Assembly (NCBI GenBank): GCA_026388535.1
Contig: JAPLJP010000133.1
Coordinates: forward strand, 1-45,679
From: Deltaproteobacteria bacterium
GTDB taxonomy: Bacteria > Desulfobacterota > Syntrophia > Syntrophales > Smithellaceae
DNA length: 45,679 nt
Direction of reading: 5' to 3'
Notes under the pieces: model-generated
What the model was told of the DNA's origin: nothing
The model's database searches: none
Seen by the model: only the letters and a program-made list of their open reading frames with translations
Part shown: in pieces, positions 4,267 through 45,456 of the stretch
Layout of the letters: the number at the start of each line of letters is the position of its first letter
How positions within the stretch are numbered: position 1 is the stretch's first letter
Position numbers and translations under genes: made by a program

Positions 4267-4490
4267 CACGGGTATGAACTCCAAAGCAAGCTTTGGAATT
4301 CATACCCTCCGCTTTGCGGGATAATTCGACTAACAAGATTAAGTGCATTCTGGTTTGTCACTGATCACGCTGCGCTGCGCTTCGGGAATATCCCCAAGGG
4401 ACAATTCCATTTACGCTTCAAATTTCGTTTCACTCATGTTCAGCGAATGTCATTGATTCGACTAACGCTTCCTATAGTTAGCGGGTCTCA
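4267..4490. repeat. dispersed two-hairpin repeat, copy A
   Basis: Hairpin GGTATGAACTCCAAAGCAAGCTTTGGAATTCATACC (4271-4306) followed by CTCCGCTTTGCGGGATAATTCGACTAAC; distal GACTAACGC...GTTAGCGGGTCTCATTAA. Confidence 0.75.
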
Positions 4491-16707: not shown

Positions 16708-16915
16708 CACGGGTATGAACCTCAAAGCAAGCTTTGGGGTTCATACCCTCCGCTTTGCGGGATTGTTTCCAATAGTTTTTGGCTATTGGATAATTCGACT
16801 AAAAAACTTCAATGCGCTTTGCTTTTAAAGTTTTAGTCTCATTACAATTTACCAATTCCGCTGCGCCTATAGTGACCTTTAGATTAATCGCTTTCGAAAT
16901 TGGAGTTTCACAAAC
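16708..16915. repeat. dispersed two-hairpin repeat, copy B
   Basis: CACGGGTATGAACCTCAAAGCAAGCTTTGGGGTTCATACCCTCCGCTTTGCGGGAT...GATAATTCGACTAAAAAACTT...AAGTTTTAGTCTCATTA...TTGGAGTTTCACAA. Confidence 0.75.
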
Positions 16916-24412: not shown

Positions 24413-24597
24413 CACGAATATGAACCTCTAAGCAAGCTGCGGGGATAATTCGACTAACAAATATTACTGCACTGCGTTTATGCTTCTTAATATTTTAACT
24501 TCTTATTTTATTCTCATCCCTATAAGCTTCGCTTAAGGGATAATTCGACTAACGAACATTACTACACTACGTTTGTAATATTCGAGTCTCATTAATT
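24413..24597. repeat. dispersed two-hairpin repeat, copy C (truncated hairpin 1 plus two hairpin-2 modules)
   Basis: CACGAATATGAACCTCTAAGCAAGCTGCGGGGATAATTCGACTAACAAATATTACTGCACTGCG..., then GGGATAATTCGACTAACGAACATTACTACACTACGTTTGTAATATTCGAGTCTCATTAA. Confidence 0.7.
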
Positions 24598-24729
24598 TTC
24601 CGCAAAATCATTCACAGAAAAACTGAATTTGATTTAAAGTTTAAGTTCTGTTATAGTTCAACAACATTTGATAATCCTCTGAGAGAAGCACTGATAAAAT
24701 ACTGTTGATTATAAGGAGTGATAACAAGA

Positions 24730-26743: not shown

Positions 26744-26915
26744 TCACGAATATGAACCCCAAAACAAGCTGCGGGATAATTCGACCTGCAAACTTCAGTT
26801 CACTCTGTTTCTTAAGCTTGGGTCTCATTAATATAGTCCCACTTAGCTTCGCACGTAGGGGTAATCCAACTGACAGATATTACTGTGCTTCGCTTGTAAT
26901 ATCTGAGTTTCATTA
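26743..26915. repeat. dispersed two-hairpin repeat, copy D (two degenerate modules)
   Basis: CACGAATATGAACCCCAAAACAAGCTGCGGGATAATTCGACCTGCAAACTTCAG...GGGTCTCATTAA and TAATCCAACTGACAGATATTACTGTGCTTCGCTTGTAATATCTGAGTTTCATTA. Confidence 0.7.
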
Positions 26916-29403: not shown

Positions 29404-29898
29404 TCATTTAAGAAATTTATTCTCAATCAAATCAGCGATACTTTTTATATCATCGATATCGAAACAGGGAACGCCGACATCAAGTTTTACATCCGCAGCG
29501 ATAGCTAAAAGATTGTCTTCTTTGCCGCAGAGCAATTCTCGTTTGAGTTCCGAGCGGAAAACTTCGACTTTGGGGAAAGGATTTCCCTTGTAGCCTTCGG
29601 CAAGAATTATATCAGCGCCTTTGATATATTTGTCTCTGATTTCGCCAAGAGTTTGGTCGCGGTCAATATCTTCAATCAAAGCAACGCGTGTTGGACAGGC
29701 AATAACCGTTGTACTTGCACCGGCTTTCTTGTGCCGCCAGCTGTCTTTGCCTTCATGGTCTATGTCAAAGCCGTGTTTGTTGTGCTTGATTGTCGCCACG
29801 CGGTATCCTCTGTTGACAAGTTCGGGAATCAGTTTTTCCACCAGCGTTGTTTTGCCGGAATTGGATTTACCAACAATTGATATGATTGGAATAGCCAT
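29404..29898 (-). CDS. mobB: molybdopterin-guanine dinucleotide biosynthesis protein B
   Basis: PIISIVGKSNSGKTTLVEKLIPELVNRGYRVATIKHNKHGFDIDHEGKDSWRHKKAGA, LAEGYKGNPFPKVEV. Confidence 0.93.
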   Translation of the reverse strand: MAIPIISIVGKSNSGKTTLVEKLIPELVNRGYRVATIKHNKHGFDIDHEGKDSWRHKKAGASTTVIACPTRVALIEDIDRDQTLGEIRDKYIKGADIILAEGYKGNPFPKVEVFRSELKRELLCGKEDNLLAIAADVKLDVGVPCFDIDDIKSIADLIENKFLK

Positions 29899-29918
29899 GT
29901 TTAATATTATCCTTTGAA

Positions 29919-30710
29919 TTAACGCATCGCCTTATTAACTACATCCTGATCGAAGTAATTACTGGACATTCCGGCATCAACTACAATACCGGTAGCATTG
30001 ATCCCGCCGGAAACAGGCGAAAGCAGAAATATTACCGTATTGGCAACTTCTTCTGTTTTGAGCGCTGCCTTACGGAGGGTCAATTGTTCGGCAAAAAGAT
30101 AATTATTAACATATCCCGGAATACCCGCTGAAGCCGATGTTTTCAATGGTCCGGCACAAACAGCGTTCACTCTAATTTTAGATATTTCCGATAATGATTT
30201 CGCTAGAAATGCCACGGTGGCATCAAGGGCGGCCTTGATCGGCCCCATATAACCGTAAGCTGTCGCTCGGGTGCTGCTGATGGAAATGGTGACAATGGAG
30301 GCGTCTTCCTCAAAATAATTCTTTAAGGAATTGGCTATTGCTACCAGAGAAAAACAGGATATATTTGTCGCCTGAAGGAAATCACCAACATTGGTCTCAT
30401 GAAACGGCTTAATCCCCTCGCTGTAATTGGCAAAAGCTATGGAATGGACAAAACCGGAAATTTTGGCATTATTATTTTGAAAATATTCTCCCAACTGGCG
30501 GATACTTTTCGCATTCTCAACATCACATATCAAAATAGTACTATCGGGAAAAAGCTTTTGAGCCTTTAATCGATTATCTTCGTTTTGAACAGAAAAAATT
30601 ACCTGAGCGCCGTTATCGATCAGGCCTTTGGCGACAAAAAAGGCGACACTCTTTTTATTGGCGACACCAGTGACCAAATACGTTTTTCCTGAAACTTGCA
30701 GAAAGTCCAT
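29919..30710 (-). CDS. FabI-like enoyl-[ACP] reductase (SDR)
   Basis: YLVTGVANKKSVAFFVAKGL, GFVHSIAFANY, AYGYMGPIKAALDATV, RVNAVCAGPLKTSAS. Confidence 0.85.
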   Translation of the reverse strand: MDFLQVSGKTYLVTGVANKKSVAFFVAKGLIDNGAQVIFSVQNEDNRLKAQKLFPDSTILICDVENAKSIRQLGEYFQNNNAKISGFVHSIAFANYSEGIKPFHETNVGDFLQATNISCFSLVAIANSLKNYFEEDASIVTISISSTRATAYGYMGPIKAALDATVAFLAKSLSEISKIRVNAVCAGPLKTSASAGIPGYVNNYLFAEQLTLRKAALKTEEVANTVIFLLSPVSGGINATGIVVDAGMSSNYFDQDVVNKAMR

Positions 30711-30719
30711 ATCAACTCC

Positions 30720-31136
30720 TTAAATGCCTTCTGGGAGGAATGCTCCCTGGAATATGGTTTTTAAAATTAATTTGTCACCTACCAAAATCGTTCCGCTCAT
30801 GTAGAAAGCGTTATCTATTTTATCATCCAGCACCACCGTAATGGTAAGAGTATCTCCTGGCCGTGCGAAATTTTTAAATTTAGTATCCTTTATCCTGGTA
30901 ACAACCCCCAACCCCTTTTGGTTACCGGTCCCCATTAAAATGGCGCCTGTTTGAAAACAAGCTTCACATAATAACGCTCCGGGCATAATGGGATTGCCAG
31001 GAAAATGGCCCTTAAAAAAATTTTCTTCTTCTCTCAATTTCCTCTGAGTTGTTATTGAATTGCCATCTCTGCTAATAATTTTATCAACAAAAAGGAATGG
31101 CGGTCGTTGAGGAATGGCGGCAAGAACATCTTCCAT
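30720..31136 (-). CDS. 3-hydroxyacyl-[ACP] dehydratase, FabZ-like hotdog protein
   Basis: IPQRPPFLFVDKIISRDGNSI, FFKGHFPGNPIMPGALLCEACFQTGAIL. Confidence 0.9.
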   Translation of the reverse strand: MEDVLAAIPQRPPFLFVDKIISRDGNSITTQRKLREEENFFKGHFPGNPIMPGALLCEACFQTGAILMGTGNQKGLGVVTRIKDTKFKNFARPGDTLTITVVLDDKIDNAFYMSGTILVGDKLILKTIFQGAFLPEGI

Positions 31137-31882
31137 TACAGTCCTCCGGCGACGGTGATTGTTGTTCCGGTAATATAAGAAGCCTCCCTTGTTGCTAAAA
31201 ACAGAACCGCGTGAGCTACTTCTTGGACCTTGCCGAAACGTTTTTGTGGGATCATCTTTAGATATTCTTTGCGTTGTTCTTCGGGAAGATCGCCGATTAG
31301 CTCCGTATCAATAAATCCCGGAGAGACACAGTTGACGGTAATTCCTTTTTTAGCCACTTCTTTGGACAATGATTTAGTCAAAGCTAATTGTCCGGCCTTG
31401 GATGCCGCGTAATTGGCCTGTCCCTGAAAGCCGATATCTCCTCCCAGAGAACTGATATTGATAATTCGTCCGAAACGATTGGCCATAAAACGGGAGATGA
31501 TTCCCCTGGACATATAAAAAGTTCCGGTAAGATTGACATCCAAAACCTTCTTCCATTGCTCGTCCTGCATTAAAGCCGTCAACGCGTCTTGCCTGATTCC
31601 GGAGTTATTCACCAATACTTCCAGCGATGAGTATTTTTCGTCCAAATATTTAAAAAAGTCTTTCACCGCTTGCGAAGAGGAGACATCATATTTTTGAATA
31701 TCGAGTTTTGGAGCGTATTGTTCGTTTTTATTTTTAAATTCATTGGCGGCAGCATCATTGGATGAATAGGTGGCAATAACCGTCGCTCCGGCTTGAAGAA
31801 ACGCCCGGGTAATTCCCGCTCCAATGCCCCGGGTGCCGCCCGTAACGATAACTCTCTGATTACTGAAATCAAACATAAACAC
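31136..31882 (-). CDS. 3-oxoacyl-[ACP] reductase, FabG-like
   Basis: RVIVTGGTRGIGAGITRAFL, LVNNSGIRQD, INISSLGGDIGFQGQANYAASKAGQLALTKSLSKEVAKKGITVNCVSPGFIDTE. Confidence 0.92.
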   Translation of the reverse strand: MFMFDFSNQRVIVTGGTRGIGAGITRAFLQAGATVIATYSSNDAAANEFKNKNEQYAPKLDIQKYDVSSSQAVKDFFKYLDEKYSSLEVLVNNSGIRQDALTALMQDEQWKKVLDVNLTGTFYMSRGIISRFMANRFGRIINISSLGGDIGFQGQANYAASKAGQLALTKSLSKEVAKKGITVNCVSPGFIDTELIGDLPEEQRKEYLKMIPQKRFGKVQEVAHAVLFLATREASYITGTTITVAGGL

Positions 31883-33305
31883 CTCGGTCTAATTTTTCTA
31901 AATAGCTTTCCACTTCATAGGATTGAATCACGCCGTAATTGGCGGCGCCCAACCAACCGGACATGATAATGCCGACAGAACCAGTATGAAACAGGCCACC
32001 AATTTCTTTGTGCAGTTTCATGGAAATCTCCAGCCCCTCATGCTTGGTTCCAAAGGAGGAACCCTTTACGTGATGAGTATATCTCTTTATAGTCAGGGGC
32101 GTTGCCGCCTCAATATAATCGATTTTTTTACTGATGCCGGGGATAACTTTTTCCAGACTCAACAATGTTGCGGCAATAAGATCTTCTTTTTTTATTTTAT
32201 ACTCCTCTTTGCTTAAACTTACCCAGTCTTCGTAACGCGCGTTAGTGGAAGAAACTATTGAGTATCCCGCATTTTCTAACTGGGGCCTGAGTCTTGGATA
32301 GTAAAGGGAAAAAGTCCGGCTTGTCGTATTCATGGAGAGGAGTTCGTCCGTCGCAAATTCTTTTGCTTCAGAGTAGAATATTAGATCGCCGATATCATCT
32401 ATTTTCTCCCCTTCCTTAATTCCCATATAAACCTGACAGGAACTGGTATTGAGTCTGACTTTATTTACTTTTTCAACAAATTGGGGAGTAAATTTTTCCA
32501 CGCCAACCAGGTCAAGAATTGTGCCGATGAGATTTCCGTTGGAAAGAACCGCCCTGGATTCAATGAAGTCGCCACCAACCATCACTCCTTGACAGACATT
32601 ATTGTTTATCACAATTTTTTCTACTTTTGACCGCAAACGAATATCAACATTGTTATTTAAAAGCTCTTCCTGCATCATCCCAACCACCAGATCAGTTCCG
32701 CCTTCAAAAGTATAAACACCTTTACTCATAAAATTGGAGAAGACGATTCCATAGGTAATTGCCGGATCTTCCAGCGTTGAACCGTTGGCGTAAACAATAG
32801 GTTCAATCAGAAAACGATGGACGTCTTTTCTGCCGGGGAAAAAACTCTCCAGCAGTTGACCATTTGTCATTTCCTTATTATCGTAATAATTCATGTTCAT
32901 GATAACCTTGAAGAAATTATCAACTTGTTCCGGGGAAACTTTAAAATTACTGATAAGCTTGCTGGTGAAATCTTCCACGGTAAAATCAGTTTCCAACTGA
33001 TATAGAGGATTTACAAAACGAACTCTTTTGAGTTGAATTATTTTATCGGCTATTTTTTTACTCCAATACTTTCTACAGGTTTTTATCATTCCCACTGGAA
33101 ATCCATGCAACGAAACATCAAAGATGTGTTTTCCCTTGCGATAAAACCAGGTCGCGAATCCTCCCAGCTTATCATGGGCCTCGAGCAAAAGAACCTTTCT
33201 GCCGTTTTTTGCCAGCTTATTGGCGGCGGTCATTCCTCCTAATCCACCCCCAATGATAATGACATCGTAATTTTGTGTAATTTTATCATTTTTATTCAGA
33301 AGCAT
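31869..33305 (-). CDS. FAD-dependent oxidoreductase, CrtI/carotenoid-isomerase/RetSat-like (oxidoreductase 2)
   Basis: YDVIIIGGGLGGMTAANKLAKNGRKVLLLEAHDKLGGFATWF; C-term GLFHTGSVGIIMSGWLGAANYGV. Confidence 0.85.
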   Translation of the reverse strand: MLLNKNDKITQNYDVIIIGGGLGGMTAANKLAKNGRKVLLLEAHDKLGGFATWFYRKGKHIFDVSLHGFPVGMIKTCRKYWSKKIADKIIQLKRVRFVNPLYQLETDFTVEDFTSKLISNFKVSPEQVDNFFKVIMNMNYYDNKEMTNGQLLESFFPGRKDVHRFLIEPIVYANGSTLEDPAITYGIVFSNFMSKGVYTFEGGTDLVVGMMQEELLNNNVDIRLRSKVEKIVINNNVCQGVMVGGDFIESRAVLSNGNLIGTILDLVGVEKFTPQFVEKVNKVRLNTSSCQVYMGIKEGEKIDDIGDLIFYSEAKEFATDELLSMNTTSRTFSLYYPRLRPQLENAGYSIVSSTNARYEDWVSLSKEEYKIKKEDLIAATLLSLEKVIPGISKKIDYIEAATPLTIKRYTHHVKGSSFGTKHEGLEISMKLHKEIGGLFHTGSVGIIMSGWLGAANYGVIQSYEVESYLEKLDRGVYV

Positions 33306-34283
33306 TTATTTCCTCACTGTCAGATCAAGCGCCTGCTCTATAGATATCTTCGGTTCATATCCAAAATCATTTTTTGCCTTCTGGTGGGAGAAATAATGGG
33401 AACGCGAAAATTGCAATGCAACAAAACGTGTCATTGGCGGCTCTCCATTAATTCGGAAAAACTTATACCAACATTCAAAAAATAGTCCAATATTAAAAGC
33501 AACTCTTTCGGGCACTTTTCCGGTTATCTTGGGCAGGTTATGGCGCGCTAAAATCTCGTTAATAAAATCCCAAAGAACGACCGGCCTTTCCTGACCGATA
33601 AAATAGGCCTGACCGGCTAATTTGGAATGAGGAGATAATTTTTCGAAGGCCAGGATGTGCGCGTCGACCGCATTCTGGATATAAGTAACATCAACAAGGT
33701 TCTTGCCGGCGCCGACTATTTTCAATCTCCCCTTTTTGGCCGCATCAACCAGGCGGGGAATCAGGTGCGGATCATCCGGCCCGAATATCAGGTGAGGTCT
33801 TAAGGCAACGGTGCATAATTTTTCATCGTTGGCCCGCAAAACCATTTGCTCGGCAATTGTTTTGGTTTTAGCATAGTTACCATGAAATTTATTGGAATAG
33901 GGCTTTGTCTCGTCGGCTCCGCATATATCACCAGCATCAAAAACGACACTGGGCGTGCTGGTGTATAATAATTTTGCTACTCCATTAGCCCGACACGCTT
34001 TAATGACATTTTCAGTCCCAATAACATTTGTCTGGTAAAAATCATTGTAATCCCCCCAAATACCAACGCAGGAAGCGACGTGAAAAACGGCATCCATTCC
34101 TTTGAACGCCGCAGAAACATCGGCCTCATTTTTTAGATCGCCGCAAATTGTATCAACACCCATTGATTGAAGTTGAGGATGATTTTTACGGCTGAAATTC
34201 CAAACCTTGTAACCTTTGGATAAAAGGCTCGATGACAAATTTTTACCTAAAAAACCACCCGCTCCTGTAACTAAAATATTCAT
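33306..34283 (-). CDS. oleD: OleD-like NAD(P)-dependent 2-alkyl-3-ketoacid reductase
   Basis: MNILVTGAGGFLGKNLSSSLLSKGYKVWNFSR, GMDAVFHVASCVGIWGDYNDFYQTNVIGTENVI, LLYTSTPSVVF, YAKTK. Confidence 0.88.
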   Translation of the reverse strand: MNILVTGAGGFLGKNLSSSLLSKGYKVWNFSRKNHPQLQSMGVDTICGDLKNEADVSAAFKGMDAVFHVASCVGIWGDYNDFYQTNVIGTENVIKACRANGVAKLLYTSTPSVVFDAGDICGADETKPYSNKFHGNYAKTKTIAEQMVLRANDEKLCTVALRPHLIFGPDDPHLIPRLVDAAKKGRLKIVGAGKNLVDVTYIQNAVDAHILAFEKLSPHSKLAGQAYFIGQERPVVLWDFINEILARHNLPKITGKVPERVAFNIGLFFECWYKFFRINGEPPMTRFVALQFSRSHYFSHQKAKNDFGYEPKISIEQALDLTVRK

Positions 34284-35905
34284 ATCTTCCCCCGCGAAAC
34301 GTCATGGGCTAGCTTTAAGCGGTCAATTTTGATATTATGCCGGACATCAACAGGCATTTGATCACAAAAATGCACTGATTTTATTTGCGCAGTACAAGCA
34401 TTGTTTCCGGCTACATTCAACAACTCTTTTTCTAAACTTTTTTTTTCTAGTTTTTTCCCCGCCTTATTTCTTTCAATAACTATGGCGGCAGATTGATTTC
34501 CCTTCTCTCCCAGCGCGACCAGAGCTGAGCGTCTGACCCCGGGGTGCGCGTTAAAGATAGCCTCGCAGGTAACCGAGCACAATAATCCTGATGGGGTTTC
34601 GGCCCGATGAGTTTTGCGTCCGCAAAACCAAATGCGGCCCTGATCGTCAATGTAGCCAAGATCTCCTATGCGATGCCAGAAGGAATTATTGTCCGCTATT
34701 TTTGTCTGAGCTGTTTCCACCGGCGACTGGTAATAACTGGAGGTGACAATATCACCCTTAACAATAATTTCTCCAATTTGATAAGGTTTTAACACTTGAG
34801 CATTCGTAATATTTTCAATGACGTCCTCACTAATCTTAATAATGGAAACTTCAACGCCGGGTACCGGTGCACCAACACAAGTTCCTTTCCCCTGCGAAGT
34901 TAAAGCGGCAGTCTGTTCCAGAATTATTTTTCCCGAGATTTTAGAAACCGGAAGACATTCCGTCGCGCCGTAAGGTGTATGTGTTGTACCGTTAGGCAAA
35001 ATCCGACTGAATTTTTTATGTAGTTCATTTCGGACTGGCGCACCAAACATTACAAGGTACTTTACAGAAGGAAGCTTGATTTTATTTTTTTCACAATAAT
35101 CGGCCAGCGCCTCCCAGATGGCCGGCGAACCGGCCATAAAAGTAACTTTATTGTCCACGATATTTTGTAATAATTTTCGAGGATCAGCTTTCGCAGGTTT
35201 GGAAGGATCCATATCCGGAATGCAGGAAGTCATTCCCATGCAGAGAGTAAAAAGAGAAAAGAGCGGAAAACATGGCAAATCAATCTCGTTATCGCTCAGG
35301 GAAAAAAGTTCCTGAAGAAGGCGAGTTTGTTCAGTATAAATTTTATGAGTGTAGACAACCCCTTTCGGATGTCCTGTTCCTCCCGAGGTAAATAAAATAG
35401 CGGCCATCTCATCCGGTTCCAGCTGTTGATTCACAAAACCGGCATCTGAACGTTCTATTGCGGCAAGAGGAAAGCAATTTCCTATCTTCGGCCCTTTGGT
35501 CGTCACTTTAAATTCAACTGATTTAAAAGCATTGCTGAAAATCAGACTCAAAAAGTGGACCTCCGGTTCGGCGATCAGCCCTTGCGGTGCAATTTCTTCA
35601 ATCGCGGCAAGAAGATTTTTTCTTCCCATGCCGGGATCAATCAATACAGGCACAACTCCCAGCTTAAAGAGAGCAAAAACTAAAGCATGAAATTTTAATG
35701 ACGGTCTTACAAAAAGAAGTGTTTTACTTCCGCGATTAAACCCGATTTTAGAAAGTCCGTTGGCATACTTGTTGGCGAGCGTTTCCAGTTCTCCAAAAGT
35801 AATAGAATCATAACTATATTTTTTACCTGCACGGCGGGGATATCTTACCGCTACTTTATTATGATGAGTTTTTGCTATCTCGGTAAAACGATCAGCGATA
35901 TTCAT
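34280..35905 (-). CDS. oleC: OleC-like AMP-dependent ligase (beta-lactone synthetase)
   Basis: AAILFTSGGTGHPKGVVYTHKIYTEQTRLL, THTPYGATECLPVS, WHRIGDLGYIDDQGRIWFCGRKTHR. Confidence 0.88.
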   Translation of the reverse strand: MNIADRFTEIAKTHHNKVAVRYPRRAGKKYSYDSITFGELETLANKYANGLSKIGFNRGSKTLLFVRPSLKFHALVFALFKLGVVPVLIDPGMGRKNLLAAIEEIAPQGLIAEPEVHFLSLIFSNAFKSVEFKVTTKGPKIGNCFPLAAIERSDAGFVNQQLEPDEMAAILFTSGGTGHPKGVVYTHKIYTEQTRLLQELFSLSDNEIDLPCFPLFSLFTLCMGMTSCIPDMDPSKPAKADPRKLLQNIVDNKVTFMAGSPAIWEALADYCEKNKIKLPSVKYLVMFGAPVRNELHKKFSRILPNGTTHTPYGATECLPVSKISGKIILEQTAALTSQGKGTCVGAPVPGVEVSIIKISEDVIENITNAQVLKPYQIGEIIVKGDIVTSSYYQSPVETAQTKIADNNSFWHRIGDLGYIDDQGRIWFCGRKTHRAETPSGLLCSVTCEAIFNAHPGVRRSALVALGEKGNQSAAIVIERNKAGKKLEKKSLEKELLNVAGNNACTAQIKSVHFCDQMPVDVRHNIKIDRLKLAHDVSRGKI

Positions 35906-35960
35906 GGATGGAGACTTCTCACCGTAATTAATATTAACGTCGTAATTAAAACTAAATTAT

Positions 35961-36021
35961 CACGGGTATGAAACCCAAAGCAAGCGTTGGAAACATTTCG
36001 CAACAAACTTTGGAGTTTCAC
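35961..36021. repeat. dispersed repeat, copy E (partial), inside the ole operon between oleB and oleC
   Basis: CACGGGTATGAAACCCAAAGCAAGCGTTGGAAAC...CTTTGGAGTTTCACAA. Confidence 0.65.
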
Positions 36022-36881
36022 AATAGAAACTGTTTCAATTCTTTAATTATTTCGCTTCCTGCATCTTCCAGCACATAATGTCCGGCAGATTCAAAAGTTT
36101 TTACAGTGGCGCGAGGATAAATTTCCATCCAGCGAATGAGAAAATAATCGTGAAAACAGAAATCCCGTTTCCCCCAAAGAATGAGGCACGGGCAGTGATG
36201 TTTAGGAAGTGATAATTCTATGTTCTTTAATGTCTGGTAACTTCGATGATTCTGATTCATGGGAATATCGGCGACAAACCGCGCTATCGCGATACGATTA
36301 TTATAATTATCATATGGGTACAAATATCCACGTCTTATTTCGGGTGACATTTTTTTTGCCACGGCCATATAAGTAGCCACCACCGCGAATCCATTTAAAC
36401 GGCGCATTACCTGTTCGGCCAGAATGGGAATCCGGCACATATTAATCTGGAAAGCGATAACAGTAGAAGTGTAGGCGGCGGAATTAAGAATAACTATCTT
36501 TTTGACCAAATCAGGATGCCGCTCTAAAAGGCCGAAACCAATAGGACCGCCCCAATCATGAACAATCAAAACAAAATCTTTTATTTCTAATTTCAAAACA
36601 AGTTTTTCCAGATTATCAATATGATGCTTCAGTATATATTCATAATCCTGCGGTTTATCAGAGAGACCACAGCCGATATGGTCCGGGACAATCACTCGAT
36701 TAGTTTTCGAAAACTCGGTAACCAGATTTCTATAATAAAAAGACCATGTGGGATTACCGTGAACCATAAGGATTGGTTGTCCCTGTCCTTCGTCGAGATA
36801 ATGCATGGAAAGATTATCTTTCAATTTAAAGAAATTTGACTTGAATGGATATAATTTGTTCAACCAATCCGGTCTTACCAC
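36018..36881 (-). CDS. oleB: OleB-like alpha/beta hydrolase (haloalkane-dehalogenase-like; beta-lactone decarboxylase)
   Basis: MHYLDEGQGQPILMVHGNPTWSFYYRNLV, VPDHIGCGLSDKP, VLIVHDWGGPIGFG, GHYVLEDA; GTG start overlapping oleA. Confidence 0.88.
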   Translation of the reverse strand: MVRPDWLNKLYPFKSNFFKLKDNLSMHYLDEGQGQPILMVHGNPTWSFYYRNLVTEFSKTNRVIVPDHIGCGLSDKPQDYEYILKHHIDNLEKLVLKLEIKDFVLIVHDWGGPIGFGLLERHPDLVKKIVILNSAAYTSTVIAFQINMCRIPILAEQVMRRLNGFAVVATYMAVAKKMSPEIRRGYLYPYDNYNNRIAIARFVADIPMNQNHRSYQTLKNIELSLPKHHCPCLILWGKRDFCFHDYFLIRWMEIYPRATVKTFESAGHYVLEDAGSEIIKELKQFLL

Positions 36882-37906
36882 TTTACCCCCAGCATAATTG
36901 AATTAATGCCTGATCCGATTCCAAGCAACCCAACATTGCTGCCCTTGGGAATATTTTTTTGCTCATCAAAAATATTTAGAGTAACTGGCAAGGCAGATGC
37001 TCCGGTGTTCCCTAAATACCCATAAGTGGTAAAAGTCGGACATTTCTCCAGTTTCAATGTCTGCTTTAAAAGAGTATCGTGCGCCACACCAACCTGATGC
37101 CCCACAAAGCAATCCACATCTTCATTAGACCATCCCAGTTCTTGTTTGGTTTCTTCCCATGTTTTTTGGGCCAGGGCGACGCCGGATTTCATCAGCTCTT
37201 CGGAATCGGTTTCCATCATCAGCGATACCGTATCGCCGCTGCCATGGCAAAGAACATTGGCCGAGGAATCAGCAAGAGATGCTCCCCCCAGAAGAAAATG
37301 GCCATCATGGACATAGTCTTTATGAGAAAGGGTATAAGCGACAGCGGCGGAGCCGATGGTTAAATTAGCGATATATTTTTTTATACTTTTTCTTGTAATA
37401 TCATTTTGGTTTAACAAATGATCGATTGTCTGAAACAGCAACGGTCCCCCATTTTCACCGGAAACGATGAGTGCATGTTTAATCGAGCCATTTTCGATCA
37501 TATTGGCTGCCACCACAAATGAACTCATTACTCCCAAACAGGCATTAGAGAGATCAAACAACATTGCTTCCGGCCGCAGCCCTAAATTATGATGAACAAT
37601 CGAGGAGGTGGATGGTTCTAAAAAATCACGACAGACAGAAGCGTGGATTATAAGATCAATATTTTCTGGTTTCATAGTATTTTTTTTAAACAAATTTCTA
37701 GCAGCTTGAGTGGACAAATCACTGGGCCTTGTTCCCGGAGGCCAGAAACGTCTTTCTTTGATTCCGGTCATTAATTCTATTCGGCCGCCGGGAAGCTTGA
37801 GGCGCTGATACAGAGGCGCGAGCTTATCTTCAATTTCTTCAGAAGTCATTATTTGATCGGGAAGATGATAGGCGAAGGAAGAAATAACGACATTCTTAAA
37901 CTTCAT
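36875..37906 (-). CDS. oleA: OleA-like thiolase (KAS-III family, head-to-head condensation)
   Basis: TGIKERRFWPPGTRPSDLSTQAARNLF, SVCRDFLEPSTSSIVHHNLGL, DLSNACLGVMSSF, FVGHQVGVAHDTLL, LLGIGSGINSIM; ATGA overlap with the upstream gene. Confidence 0.92.
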   Translation of the reverse strand: MKFKNVVISSFAYHLPDQIMTSEEIEDKLAPLYQRLKLPGGRIELMTGIKERRFWPPGTRPSDLSTQAARNLFKKNTMKPENIDLIIHASVCRDFLEPSTSSIVHHNLGLRPEAMLFDLSNACLGVMSSFVVAANMIENGSIKHALIVSGENGGPLLFQTIDHLLNQNDITRKSIKKYIANLTIGSAAVAYTLSHKDYVHDGHFLLGGASLADSSANVLCHGSGDTVSLMMETDSEELMKSGVALAQKTWEETKQELGWSNEDVDCFVGHQVGVAHDTLLKQTLKLEKCPTFTTYGYLGNTGASALPVTLNIFDEQKNIPKGSNVGLLGIGSGINSIMLGVKW

Positions 37907-39288
37907 GCCTTGTCTCCATTCATCAGGCAATGAAGATTAGCCATTGAAATGCCGCTGAGCATGGCGCCGACTATTCCTAAAAAACCCTGATCAGTACCGC
38001 AGATAAAGAGGTTCTTAATGGCGGTTCTGCCATCTCTGACTTTTTGAGTGCTTCCGTAAACAGCTCCTTTAATATGACCCGTGTAACGCATAATTGTCCT
38101 GGGCGTGAAAACATCATAATAAAGCAACTTGGCCTTAAATTCAGGAAATAATCTGGCAATTAATGCCAGAGATTCTTTGCGTACTTCTTTTTTCCTTAAA
38201 AGATACGTTTTTCTGTCTAATTCATTCCATTTCTCAAAATTGGAAATAAAAGTAACGCGAACCACCCCTTCATCGTTATCATCATAACCAAAATTATTGG
38301 GAAAACAAATAACGGCGCTCCGATAGTCACAAAGAGTTTGCGGCTTTTGATACTTATACTTCTCATTATCATTAAAGAATATAATTGTATCTTTGATACC
38401 CTGATCAGACGGCTTCTTATCAAAAAAGAAAATTGTTTCCGTAAAACTCATCGCGCCGACCGCAGGGCATTCCTGCTTTTCGGAAACAATATTCATCGTT
38501 TCCGGAAAGCCAATGGAAGACATGACCTTATTGGATTGGATTATTTCTCCATTATCCAGAATTACACTTTTAACGACACCGCGTTCCGTATCTATCTTTC
38601 TAATACCCGCTCCCAAGCGCAGTTCTCCACCGAGTTGTATATATTTTTCGATAAGGAGATTGATAATGGCGCGAACTCCATTTTTGGGCCTGCTGAATCC
38701 TTCCAGATAAATACTTTTGAACATAATGACAAATTGAGAAAAATCCATGTCATTTTCCCAGGCGCTCCCGTAAATCAGCAGGGGACAAAAAATCATCTCG
38801 AGTAAATTCTCATCAGAAATAATCTCTCTGACTTTTTCTTTCGCGCTTTGATATTTGTTATTTAAATTAACATCATCATATTTTTTTATAAGCTCGAGAA
38901 GTCTGGCAAAATTATCCTTCTGGAGAGGGAAAGTTTTTTCGATCTCCTCCGTGAGTAATTGAGGATCATTGGAGAAAGAAAGTTGATGTTCGGGAAATGC
39001 GATTCGTGAAAAATGTTGCTGTGACAATTCCAATTTTTCATAAGGTATTCTCAATTGTTTAAGCAATTTTGTTAAAGGCCGCCCTCTTTCGCCCCGGCGG
39101 GCAAAATTGGTCATGGCATGCAGTCCAACATCCAGCTTTCTGTCCAGGCGTTCATAATAGGAGTTAAGACCTCCGGGGACTTTATGTCTTTCCAGAATGC
39201 AGACCTTTTGATCAAACATCGCCAGTCTGATCCCAGCCGCCAGCCCCGACATGCCCGCACCTATTATTATAGTATCATAACTAGTCAT
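37903..39288 (-). CDS. FAD-dependent oxidoreductase, CrtI/carotenoid-isomerase/RetSat-like (oxidoreductase 1)
   Basis: YDTIIIGAGMSGLAAGIRLAMFDQKVCILERHKVPGGLNSYY; C-term LFICGTDQGFLGIVGAMLSGISMANLH. Confidence 0.85.
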   Translation of the reverse strand: MTSYDTIIIGAGMSGLAAGIRLAMFDQKVCILERHKVPGGLNSYYERLDRKLDVGLHAMTNFARRGERGRPLTKLLKQLRIPYEKLELSQQHFSRIAFPEHQLSFSNDPQLLTEEIEKTFPLQKDNFARLLELIKKYDDVNLNNKYQSAKEKVREIISDENLLEMIFCPLLIYGSAWENDMDFSQFVIMFKSIYLEGFSRPKNGVRAIINLLIEKYIQLGGELRLGAGIRKIDTERGVVKSVILDNGEIIQSNKVMSSIGFPETMNIVSEKQECPAVGAMSFTETIFFFDKKPSDQGIKDTIIFFNDNEKYKYQKPQTLCDYRSAVICFPNNFGYDDNDEGVVRVTFISNFEKWNELDRKTYLLRKKEVRKESLALIARLFPEFKAKLLYYDVFTPRTIMRYTGHIKGAVYGSTQKVRDGRTAIKNLFICGTDQGFLGIVGAMLSGISMANLHCLMNGDKA

Positions 39289-39295
39289 AGAAAAT

Positions 39296-39559
39296 TTATG
39301 AAAACTTTGGTCCTAAATATTCAATACAACTTTTCAATGTTGCCAGTTTAGGGTAGTCTTCCGTAGGCACTTCAATCTTATATCTCTTCTTTAATTCCAT
39401 CACAATATCCAGAAAATCCATGGAATCCAAATCAAGCTGATCTCTTAGTTTTGTATTATCATCAAGGTTCGAAAGATCCTCATCAACTGCAATTTCAGCG
39501 ATGATATCTATAATTATTTGTCTTATGGCCTTCTCATCCAAGTTGCTGCCTCCTTGCAA
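39296..39559 (-). CDS. acyl carrier protein
   Basis: LRDQLDLDSMDFLDIVMELKKRYKIEVPTEDYPKLATL, phosphopantetheine Ser in DSMD. Confidence 0.93.
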   Translation of the reverse strand: MQGGSNLDEKAIRQIIIDIIAEIAVDEDLSNLDDNTKLRDQLDLDSMDFLDIVMELKKRYKIEVPTEDYPKLATLKSCIEYLGPKFS

Positions 39560-39564
39560 AAAAA

Positions 39565-40824
39565 TTATTTTATATATTTTTTTATTATTAAAACTGAATT
39601 AATTCCCAGCATCCCGAAAGAGTTACTCAAAATGAAATTAACTTCCTTTTCGACTGGTTCGCCATTTACTAAATTCTTCATATTGCACTTAGGATCAACA
39701 TTTTCAATATGTTTACACGAATGAATTTTATTATCAGTAAAGCTGGGCAAATTTCCAGCAAGTTCCAACGCTCCGGCTGCGCCCATCGCATGACCGATAA
39801 ATCCTTTGGTGCAATTAATATACGTATTTTCGGATTGTCCGAAAATTAAATTAACGGCTTCACATTCATTAATATCTCCGGAGGTTGTTCCCGTGGCGTG
39901 TAGATTAACTATATCAATATCGCTGGCCGTAATTTTTGCCTTGGCCATCGCGGCATTAATGCACTCAACCTGCCTTTGCGTATCAGGAAGGACAAAATCA
40001 ACGGCATCGGAATTGATATGATAACCGGCTATTTCGCCATAAATTTTCGCCCCTCGCTTCTTGGCATCTTCCAATCTTTCCAGAACAAAAATGGCCCCTC
40101 CCTCCGAAACAACAATACCATTACGGTTAATATCCAAAGGTCGGCTCGCGCGAGTTGGATCATCATGCGCCCCGAGGGCCCCTTGACTCTTAAAGCCGGC
40201 AAATATACCGAAAGTGCCCGTGCTTTCGGAGACTCCTCCCGCCAAAGCCAGATCAACTTCATGTAGTTGCAACATTTGCATGCCATGAATAATGCCAATA
40301 TTTCCGGCGGCACAGGCGGCACCGATAGTGTAAGCGGGACCTGTAATCCCCATATTTAAACTGACTTCACCGGCAGGTGTATTGGCCACAGTTCTAGGGT
40401 TATGATGATGAGACCATAAACTGGCATCAAGATTATTCTTATGAAGTTCATAAATTTCGTTCTCCGTTTCTACGTTGCCGTGCTCAGTAATACCCAGATA
40501 GATTCCGGTTCTATCTTTAACTAATGAATCCATGGATAACCCGCTGTCCTTCAATGCTTCGTGGGCGCAATAAATTGAAATTGACCCTGCTCGAGTCCCT
40601 CGCCTTCGCATTTTTTTCTTTTGATAAAGATTTTCATCAAAATGACAGTTTCCTACCGCGACCTTACCCATATAACGAACTTCCATTTGAGTAATTCCGG
40701 ATTTCTGATTCAGAAGGGCATCGCGTAACTCTTTTAGATTATTAGCGTTAGGGGCAGTAAGTCCAACACCGGTGATAACAACCCTGATATTTTGATTATT
40801 ACTCATGGGCATTTTCCCGTTCAC
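39565..40824 (-). CDS. beta-ketoacyl-ACP synthase, FabF (KAS-II)-like
   Basis: IRVVITGVGLTAPNANN, Cys motif YTIGAACAAGNIGIIHG, His motifs NLHATGTTSGD and GFIGHAMGAAGALE, C-term SNSFGMLGINSVLI. Confidence 0.93.
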   Translation of the reverse strand: MNGKMPMSNNQNIRVVITGVGLTAPNANNLKELRDALLNQKSGITQMEVRYMGKVAVGNCHFDENLYQKKKMRRRGTRAGSISIYCAHEALKDSGLSMDSLVKDRTGIYLGITEHGNVETENEIYELHKNNLDASLWSHHHNPRTVANTPAGEVSLNMGITGPAYTIGAACAAGNIGIIHGMQMLQLHEVDLALAGGVSESTGTFGIFAGFKSQGALGAHDDPTRASRPLDINRNGIVVSEGGAIFVLERLEDAKKRGAKIYGEIAGYHINSDAVDFVLPDTQRQVECINAAMAKAKITASDIDIVNLHATGTTSGDINECEAVNLIFGQSENTYINCTKGFIGHAMGAAGALELAGNLPSFTDNKIHSCKHIENVDPKCNMKNLVNGEPVEKEVNFILSNSFGMLGINSVLIIKKYIK

Positions 40825-43322: not shown

Positions 43323-43350
43323 TTGACAAATAAGAATATAGTTGTATCAT
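43323..43350 (+). promoter_or_regulatory. promoter of the MarR-like gene
   Basis: TTGACA - 16 nt - TATCAT, -10 box inside a palindrome adjoining the ATG at 43357. Confidence 0.6.
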
Positions 43351-43355
43351 ACAAC
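43341..43355. promoter_or_regulatory. candidate MarR operator, perfect palindrome
   Basis: GTTGTAT-C-ATACAAC overlapping the -10 region. Confidence 0.6.
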
Positions 43356-43356
43356 C

Positions 43357-43830
43357 ATGTTAATAAAAATAAATGAAAACTGCTCTGAATTAATGAATGT
43401 GTTTAGCGGCCTTTCACAGGTGATGCGTTGCTGTTGGCGTGATGAGGCCTTCTGCGAAGGAATAACTTTCCATCAGTTCATGATTCTGGATACAGCAGCA
43501 AAAGCAAAAGAACTCAACATGTCAGATCTGCATAAAATTTTATCGGTACAGAAAAGCACGACAACCCGCCTGGTTAATCCCCTGATTAATAAAGGGCTCT
43601 TGCGCCGCGATAAGGCAGATCATGATTCTCGCGCTGTAAAGCTTACATTGACCAAGGAAGGTCTTGAGACCCATAAAAAGGTATGGCTTTGTCTAATAGA
43701 TTTCTACCAGAGAGTTACTAATAACATACCTGAAGAAAAGAGGGCGGAAGTATTAGAATGCGTAAAAATTTTTATTGCCGCCATAAAAAACTCATCCGAT
43801 ACTTGTAATTGCTGTAAACCAAGGTCATGA
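43357..43830 (+). CDS. MarR-family transcriptional regulator with Cys-rich C-terminus
   Basis: wHTH: MSDLHKILSVQKSTTTRLVNPLINKGLLRRDKADHDSRAVKLTLTKEGLE; tail SDTCNCCKPRS. ATG at 43357 preferred to the ORF-track TTG at 43342 because of the promoter/palindrome. Confidence 0.85.
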   Translation: MLIKINENCSELMNVFSGLSQVMRCCWRDEAFCEGITFHQFMILDTAAKAKELNMSDLHKILSVQKSTTTRLVNPLINKGLLRRDKADHDSRAVKLTLTKEGLETHKKVWLCLIDFYQRVTNNIPEEKRAEVLECVKIFIAAIKNSSDTCNCCKPRS

Positions 43831-43941
43831 ACCCCATAGCTTGCTGTAGGGTTCAGACCCTCCGCTTTGCGGGATAATTAGACTAACAAATATTACTGCA
43901 CTATGTTTGTAATATTTGAATCTCATTAAATTGGAGTTTCA
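43828..43941. repeat. dispersed two-hairpin repeat, copy F, between the marR-like gene and hgcA
   Basis: TGAACCCCATAGCTTGCTGTAGGGTTCA; CCTCCGCTTTGCGGGATAATTAGACTAACAAATATTAC...GTAATATTTGAATCTCATTAAATTGGAGTTTCACAA. Confidence 0.75.
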
Positions 43942-43962
43942 CAATAAAACAAGGATAATAAT

Positions 43963-45120
43963 ATGAATAGTTGCTCCAGTCCCAAAGATGAATTTACATT
44001 CCCAATAATAAAGGATGAATTTAACTGCGGTTGCATAAGCAAAGCCAAGCATGTCCAAAATAATATTACTGCGTTGGAACAATCTTTTGTCAGCGGATCA
44101 GTACTCACGTCAGCAGGCCGCTTGCCGCAAGTATTATCGACTTTGCGCCGGCAAGATCACTGGGAAACTATCAAAGCCCGTTTCGGTACCTTTAGAATGA
44201 ATTATAGTGTGGTCCCCGGCCTATACGCGTTAGGCCATCCGGATGATAATTCGCCTGTTTTAGTTACCGCCAATTACAAGATGAGTTTTGATCGCTTGAG
44301 GAAAGCTCTACCGGGTAGGGATCTCTGGATTCTAGTGCTGGACACGAAAGGCATAAATGTGTGGTGCGCGGCAGGTAAAGGCACCTTTGGCACGGAGGAG
44401 CTTGTCCGAAGAATAGAATTAAGCGGCTTGAGCAATATCGTAAAACACAGAAAATTAATTCTTCCTCAGCTGGGCGCAGCGGGAGTCGCCGCTCACAAAG
44501 TAGCAAAACTCTCCGGCTTCAAGGTTCAATATGGTCCGATACGCGCGGAGGATTTACCTGTTTATCTCGATGGCGGTTTCAAGGCAACCGCGCAAATGCG
44601 AATAATGAACTTCCCATTAAAAGAAAGAGCTGTGCTGATTCCTATTGAACTCAATGAAACAATAAAACCGTTTCTAATTATCGCTTCGATTTTATTGATC
44701 ATCAGCGGCATAATGGGGCCGGCTGGATTTTGGGCAAATGTGGCTGGTTATGGATTTTTCGCTGTCATGGGATTACTTTGTGCCATTATCGGAGGAACAG
44801 TTTTTAATGCTCTTCTCTTGCCGTATCTGCCGGGACGGGCGTTTTCTTTGAAGGGTTTATCGATCGGCATTGTCATCGCCCTAATTCTTCTTTATCTGCG
44901 TGGCATCAATTTACAGACATGGCCGGGAAGGATTGAAACTCTGTCCTGGCTGTTGATAATCCCGGCAATATCGTCATATCTTGCGATGAATTTTACCGGA
45001 TGCTCCACCTATACTTCTCTATCCGGAGTGAAAAAGGAAATGCGCTGGGCGCTTCCTTTTCAAATTACTGCCGGCGTGGGCGGTCTTATTACATGGATAA
45101 GTGCAATTTTTATTGCCTAG
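43963..45120 (+). CDS. hgcA: mercury methylation corrinoid protein HgcA
   Basis: Diagnostic cap-helix motif NVWCAAGKG (44356-44382) in an N-terminal corrinoid-binding domain followed by several C-terminal TM helices; followed immediately by a HgcB-like ferredoxin. Confidence 0.95.
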   Translation: MNSCSSPKDEFTFPIIKDEFNCGCISKAKHVQNNITALEQSFVSGSVLTSAGRLPQVLSTLRRQDHWETIKARFGTFRMNYSVVPGLYALGHPDDNSPVLVTANYKMSFDRLRKALPGRDLWILVLDTKGINVWCAAGKGTFGTEELVRRIELSGLSNIVKHRKLILPQLGAAGVAAHKVAKLSGFKVQYGPIRAEDLPVYLDGGFKATAQMRIMNFPLKERAVLIPIELNETIKPFLIIASILLIISGIMGPAGFWANVAGYGFFAVMGLLCAIIGGTVFNALLLPYLPGRAFSLKGLSIGIVIALILLYLRGINLQTWPGRIETLSWLLIIPAISSYLAMNFTGCSTYTSLSGVKKEMRWALPFQITAGVGGLITWISAIFIA

Positions 45121-45129
45121 GAGTTCAAA

Positions 45130-45456
45130 TTGAAAAAATTAATTTATCTCAAAGATGTTGTTACTTTGCTGTTGGACGAGAATAAATGCACCGGCTGCGG
45201 AATATGCATGGATGTTTGTCCCCATGACGTATTTAAAATGAATAGTTCACACGTAGCAATCCAGAATCGGGATGCCTGTATGGAATGCGGAGCATGCAGT
45301 TTGAACTGCCCGGCTGACGCTATTTCAGTAAAATCAGGTGTCGGCTGTGCCGCCGCGGTTATAAATTCCATGTTGGGGAGAAACGGCGGCGAATGTTGTT
45401 GTGGTCCGGATACCGGCGGCACAACTGCCAATACTAAAGGTGGCTGTTGCAGCTGA
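45130..45456 (+). CDS. hgcB: 2[4Fe-4S] ferredoxin HgcB
   Basis: CTGCGICMDVCPHDVF and CMECGACSLNCPADAIS clusters, extra Cys (VGCAAAV, ECCCG), C-terminal vicinal CC; TTG start with TAGGAG upstream. Confidence 0.93.
   Translation: MKKLIYLKDVVTLLLDENKCTGCGICMDVCPHDVFKMNSSHVAIQNRDACMECGACSLNCPADAISVKSGVGCAAAVINSMLGRNGGECCCGPDTGGTTANTKGGCCS

Follow-up and report, generated by a model that had tools for sequence, protein, structure and literature searches.

According to the account of Gionfriddo 2023 cited in PMC10349881, the hgcAB genes of Pseudodesulfovibrio mercurii ND132 are under the control of an ArsR protein, with a response to arsenic. MarR genes upstream of hgcA have been mentioned in one sentence for Geobacter daltonii FRC-32 and Dethiobacter alkaliphilus (PMC10349881), and in that article we found no description of the operator, cysteine signature, distribution, or promoter of these genes. 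A PrlF/MazE/AbrB-type gene has been placed at hgcA in archaea (PMC10349881), and an unnamed putative regulator lies upstream of hgcAB in 112 genomes (PMC7438021); we infer that the latter is probably the AbrB-type protein seen at loci L077, L029, L045, and others of our comparison. Smithella and Syntrophaceae are already among the taxa known to carry and express hgcA, peat transcripts included (PMC7438021, PMC8524442).

The window analyzed here (the whole stretch of 45,679 nucleotides) comes from an uncultured Smithella-like syntrophic bacterium, as contig 30 of its 2.86-Mb draft genome (completeness of 96%, contamination of 5.8%). It represents the same lineage and gene as the peatland Smithella/Syntrophaceae hgcA (PMC7438021, PMC8524442) and adds another genome to the group. 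The closest HgcA relatives are found in Syntrophaceae/Smithella MAGs, at 81% identity and lower, and an HgcA over the cutoff occurs in 76 of the 155 genomes of the order. The gene pair alone is thus an ordinary new member of a lineage in which hgcAB was already known. The first-pass annotation of this DNA made no mention of the MarR gene and promoter at 43323-43830, directly ahead of the pair. The features of the locus are the following.

43323..43328 (+), -35 hexamer TTGACA of the regulator promoter; identified from the sequence and conserved across 33 loci.
43341..43355 (+), putative operator palindrome GTTGTATCATACAAC, containing the -10 hexamer TATCAT (43345-43350).
43357..43830 (+), MarR-family regulator; Pfam MarR PF01047, 38.9 bits (cutoff, 24.6), with a MarR fold model.
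43831..43962 (+), dispersed repeat that forms a hairpin; matched 42 times in the host genome, folding z-score of -2.6.
43963..45120 (+), hgcA, corrinoid methyltransferase of 385 amino acids; NF040863, 452.8 bits; PF03599, 43.6 bits; 81% identity to the closest relative (L002).
45130..45456 (+), hgcB, 108 amino acids with a TTG start; NF040864, 119.5 bits; two 4Fe-4S clusters and C-terminal cysteines.

Judging from the cited account of ND132, both loci have the same enzyme pair with a helix-turn-helix regulator immediately upstream, and in ND132 this neighbor regulates hgcAB. The difference is that the window has a MarR protein instead of an ArsR-like one, and that its operator overlaps the -10 box by a predicted leaderless ATG. 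The likeness to G. daltonii FRC-32 and D. alkaliphilus lies in a gene of the MarR family upstream of hgcA. A conserved gene directly upstream of hgcA is also common to the regulators of PMC7438021 and PMC10349881, but the AbrB fold is unrelated to MarR. In the open-access literature, which many journals are outside of, we found no description of the operator, cysteine signature, or exclusive hgcA linkage of this MarR subfamily, nor did we find there any leaderless MarR operator system that matches.

Mechanical open reading frame (ORF) calling placed the start of the MarR gene at a TTG (43342), while the alignment places it at the ATG at 43357, which we adopted. In Pfam, the protein matches MarR and further winged-helix families, but not the ArsR domain (PF01022). 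An orthologue lies upstream of hgcA in 37 of the 80 related loci, and a profile of the subfamily recovered 58 genes in 58 of the 155 genomes of the order, one copy in each. The linkage to hgcA is conserved, as in 54 of these 58 genomes hgcA follows the MarR gene immediately and in the same orientation, with 154 to 469 bp between the model ends (Fisher odds ratio of 43, p 1.8e-18, the relatedness of the genomes being ignored in this test). The four MarR genes without hgcA are found at contig ends (G044 and G080), as a truncated relic (G058), and as a partial copy with a stop (G138), and 396 genomes drawn from the phylum gave five further matches outside the order, four of them beside hgcA. Being single copy and hgcA linked, the protein was rejected as a general regulator. 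The regulator is absent from 23 of the 77 hgcA genomes of the order, so MarR is not required for hgcAB. On the HgcA tree, the presence of MarR takes 8 changes, compared with 24.8 for shuffled labels, which indicates that it was mostly inherited with hgcA, with a few losses or transfers. The conservation of marR-hgcA may be in part inertia from shared ancestry, though the flank upstream of the promoter has decayed to 0.06 bits. At the relic locus (L094, G058:C250, around 45190), the operator and the truncated MarR gene are kept and hgcA is gone from the genome, which suggests a past loss of hgcAB.

The promoter has a well-defined anatomy. Alignment of 33 loci on the operator gave a consensus of TTGACA, 16 nt, and the palindrome GTTGTATnATACAAC enclosing a -10 TATnAT. 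The spacer between the -35 and -10 hexamers is 16 nt in 24 of the 33 loci and 16 to 17 nt in 28, with 15 to 18 nt in the remaining loci that have a -35. Information content reaches 1.69 bits per position in the operator, compared with 0.06 in the outermost 30 upstream bases. The ATG follows the operator by 1 nt in 25 loci and by 3 to 4 nt in the other 8, which places +1 on or beside the A of the ATG, and only one of the 33 loci has a Shine-Dalgarno-like sequence ahead of marR. In the window, taking the -10 hexamer at 43345-43350 as -12 to -7 puts +1 at 43357, the first base of the marR start codon, so a leaderless start is predicted and appears likely from the sequence.

This operator is also very specific to the locus. 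In the window, GTTGTATCATACAAC is the only match at up to two mismatches (0.13 expected), and across the 155 genomes the exact palindrome GTTGTATnATACAAC occurs at 32 sites in 30 genomes, 30 of the 32 at the marR-hgcA promoter (one of them, G033:C75, belongs to a single locus split over two contigs). A reversed-pattern control gave one site, and no exact palindrome was found in the genomes of the order that lack hgcA. The two other exact sites are beside transposase-type genes (L084 in G037:C155 and L085 in G038:C2), within a TTGACA...AGTTGTATnATACAACT promoter that could be either a chance occurrence or a captured operator. A palindromic site that covers the -10 box is the arrangement classically associated with repression. 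MarR is likely the repressor that pairs with GTTGTATnATACAAC, and the promoter anatomy predicts a leaderless, self-repressed transcript of the regulator and hgcAB.

The MarR protein is rich in cysteines, at positions 25, 26, 33, 112, 150, 152, and 153, which form the pattern RCC-x6-C, C112, and a C-terminal CxCC. Among 33 sequences, C33 and C112 are invariant, C152 is conserved in at least 90%, and C25, C26, and C153 are common. The structure model shows a typical winged-helix MarR fold (pLDDT 83.9) with a poorly defined C-terminal tail, and in it the cysteines are flanked by helices alpha1 and alpha5-alpha6, the dimer-forming helices of MarR proteins in general. MexR, ZitR, and HpaR are among its Foldseek neighbors, and ZitR and MexR are MarR dimers able to respond via cysteine or metal. 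These two are fold neighbors but share only 15 to 23% identity with the window protein and have a different operator and target.

We consider it quite probable that the locus is a functional-looking marR-hgcA-hgcB unit in which an autorepressing MarR holds back hgcAB until a thiophilic signal releases them. A MarR dimer would bind GTTGTATnATACAAC in the promoter of its own gene, where the palindrome covers the -10 box, and so shut off a transcript that would start with the first base of the marR start codon and continue from marR into hgcAB, here across a 132-bp repeat. Residues C25, C26, and C33, together with C112 and the CxCC motif, would react with or bind the signal, which might be a soft metal(loid) or a thiol or redox agent, and the protein would then let go of the operator, allowing expression of HgcA (methyl-corrinoid) and HgcB (ferredoxin) as the Hg(II)-methylating pair. 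We propose that this MarR is a repressor dedicated to hgcAB that senses thiols or thiophilic metal(loid)s. The cysteines may, however, have a structural or redox-sensing role in place of metal binding.

The nature of the signal is where the strongest alternative arises. MarR could sense an organic ligand or the redox state of syntrophic or one-carbon metabolism, to which hgcAB would be native, with the cysteines acting as an OhrR- or MexR-like redox switch. The conservation of the cysteines would suit such a switch, and MexR is among the near neighbors in sequence and fold, together with other MarR proteins that sense ligands or oxidants; however, the adjacent C25-C26 and the C-terminal CxCC argue against it, as do the regulators of other hgcA loci, where unrelated cysteine-rich proteins point to a shared chemistry of soft metals or thiols, and we regard this reading as possible but rather unlikely. 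In the position of MarR, those loci have ArsR (five loci) or AbrB-like (eight loci) genes unrelated to it, and the MarR, ArsR, and AbrB proteins beside hgcA all have CC or CxC motifs and a cysteine content of 4.1 to 5.5%, compared with a background of 1.3% in long ORFs. The ArsR and AbrB sets are small and their queries were taken from hgcA loci, so cysteine-poor regulators may be underrepresented in this comparison; at 24 hgcA loci, none of the three families was found. Within the same genus, locus L086 (G031:C52:163500-168500) has an ArsR in place of MarR upstream of hgcAB, with a palindrome over the -10 box of the ArsR promoter too, and a thioredoxin-like protein and a permease downstream (annotated by eye).

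It is less probable still that the neighboring MarR controls only itself, with hgcAB constitutive or transcribed from their own promoter inside the intergenic repeat. The marR-hgcA gap of the window is made of this dispersed repeat, just ahead of a conserved hgcA ribosome-binding site, and the repeat could weaken the coupling of the genes or uncouple them in the host genome. Its family is intergenic, about 60 to 130 bp long, with an inverted repeat CAAATATTAC/GTAATATTTG and a core CTCCGCTTTGCGGGATAATT, and further copies are present in the window at 4278-4336, 16719-16849, 24442-24598, and 26770-26915. A MarR that acts on its own gene alone would agree with this repeat and with the hgcA genomes of the order that do without the regulator. 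Against it, the linkage has been kept in the 54 genomes of the order and in four of other families outside, the operator is found nowhere else of note, and marR and hgcA nearly touch in most relatives, the closest of which (L002) has no repeat and almost no gap at the junction.

The enzymes themselves leave little room for doubt, and the first-pass annotation, which had recognized them as the marker genes of methylmercury producers, is borne out in this respect. HgcA aligns over positions 2 to 324 of the 325 of the NCBIfam equivalog NF040863 (cutoff, 275 bits), so that the membrane part is covered, and it contains both elements that had been read from the sequence, the transmembrane domain and the NVWCAAGKG cap helix (INVWCAAGKG in the ORF); the NVWCA cap motif is common to all 80 related loci. 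The Pfam match corresponds to a CFeSP-like corrinoid domain, and CFeSP large subunits are the closest solved structures (PDB chains). HgcB also exceeds its equivalog cutoff (99 bits), starts after a gap of exactly 9 nt from the hgcA stop, and has the predicted cysteine architecture, with the clusters CTGCGICMDVC and CMECGACSLNC followed by VGC, ECCC, and a terminal GGCCS that accounts for the C-terminal CC pair. An HgcAB_like fusion protein was rejected, as the score for that model (205) is below its cutoff (285), which marks the protein as a true HgcA. That the two are HgcAB-like paralogues without methylation activity is very improbable, for although HgcA is the sole CFeSP/acetyl-CoA pathway homologue found in the genome, both proteins pass the equivalog cutoffs, fail the HgcAB_like cutoff, and keep the cap-helix motif intact. 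On these profile matches and motifs, it is nearly certain that they are a genuine hgcAB pair, which is the accepted marker for anaerobes that methylate mercury, and to call the source organism a predicted methylator is fair. In the HgcA of this clade (43963-44130 in the window and the corresponding part of L002-L025), the N terminus is extended by some 50 residues that include a CC or CxC motif (NCGC in the window); most HgcA proteins at a greater distance lack this extension.

The cobalamin-pathway genes, which the first-pass annotation had singled out for checking, qualify this prediction. TonB-B12/BtuB-like receptors are present in the host, but under the family cutoff. No CobS was found in the host genome, although 8 of the 17 genomes of the genus have it, and no CbiC was found in any of the 17, while the search controls gave matches. 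CbiC is needed for de novo corrin synthesis. Judged from these two markers only, de novo cobalamin synthesis looks absent, and the corrinoid for HgcA would probably have to be imported. A corrinoid supply of its own was thus not found in the host, but this is not strictly defining for a methylator, as import would suffice. With CbiC missing from 17 of 17 genomes of the genus and CobS patchy, there is an apparent corrinoid auxotrophy in hgcAB carriers. No PF03599 protein other than HgcA occurs in the genome, so no CFeSP/acetyl-CoA pathway partner was found. An Rfam scan of the window found no cobalamin or other riboswitch, and a tRNA scan found no tRNA genes. Elsewhere in the window, the reverse strand carries a run of genes (29404-40824, -) that is possibly a lipid or polyene cluster; it includes an FabF-like ketosynthase, a carotenoid-isomerase-like oxidoreductase, and a small acidic ORF resembling an acyl carrier protein.

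We tentatively suggest that hgcAB may be a stress-response operon, with at least three unrelated and independently recruited cysteine-rich families (MarR, ArsR, and AbrB) directly upstream of hgcA in different lineages and a Syntrophales MarR that would control essentially hgcAB only. If true, the native role of HgcAB would lie in responding to a metal(loid) that reacts with thiols, and would not be an accident of one-carbon metabolism. Both the trigger of hgcAB and the reason why cells keep these genes matter for predicting methylmercury in wetlands. Smithella-type syntrophs are a major transcriber of hgcA in peat. With a dedicated regulator and a single sharp operator, the signal should be identifiable with purified protein and one DNA fragment, and the operator together with MarR provides a sequence marker for the study of metatranscriptomes. 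The host's apparent dependence on corrinoid would, in addition, link methylation to partner-supplied B12.
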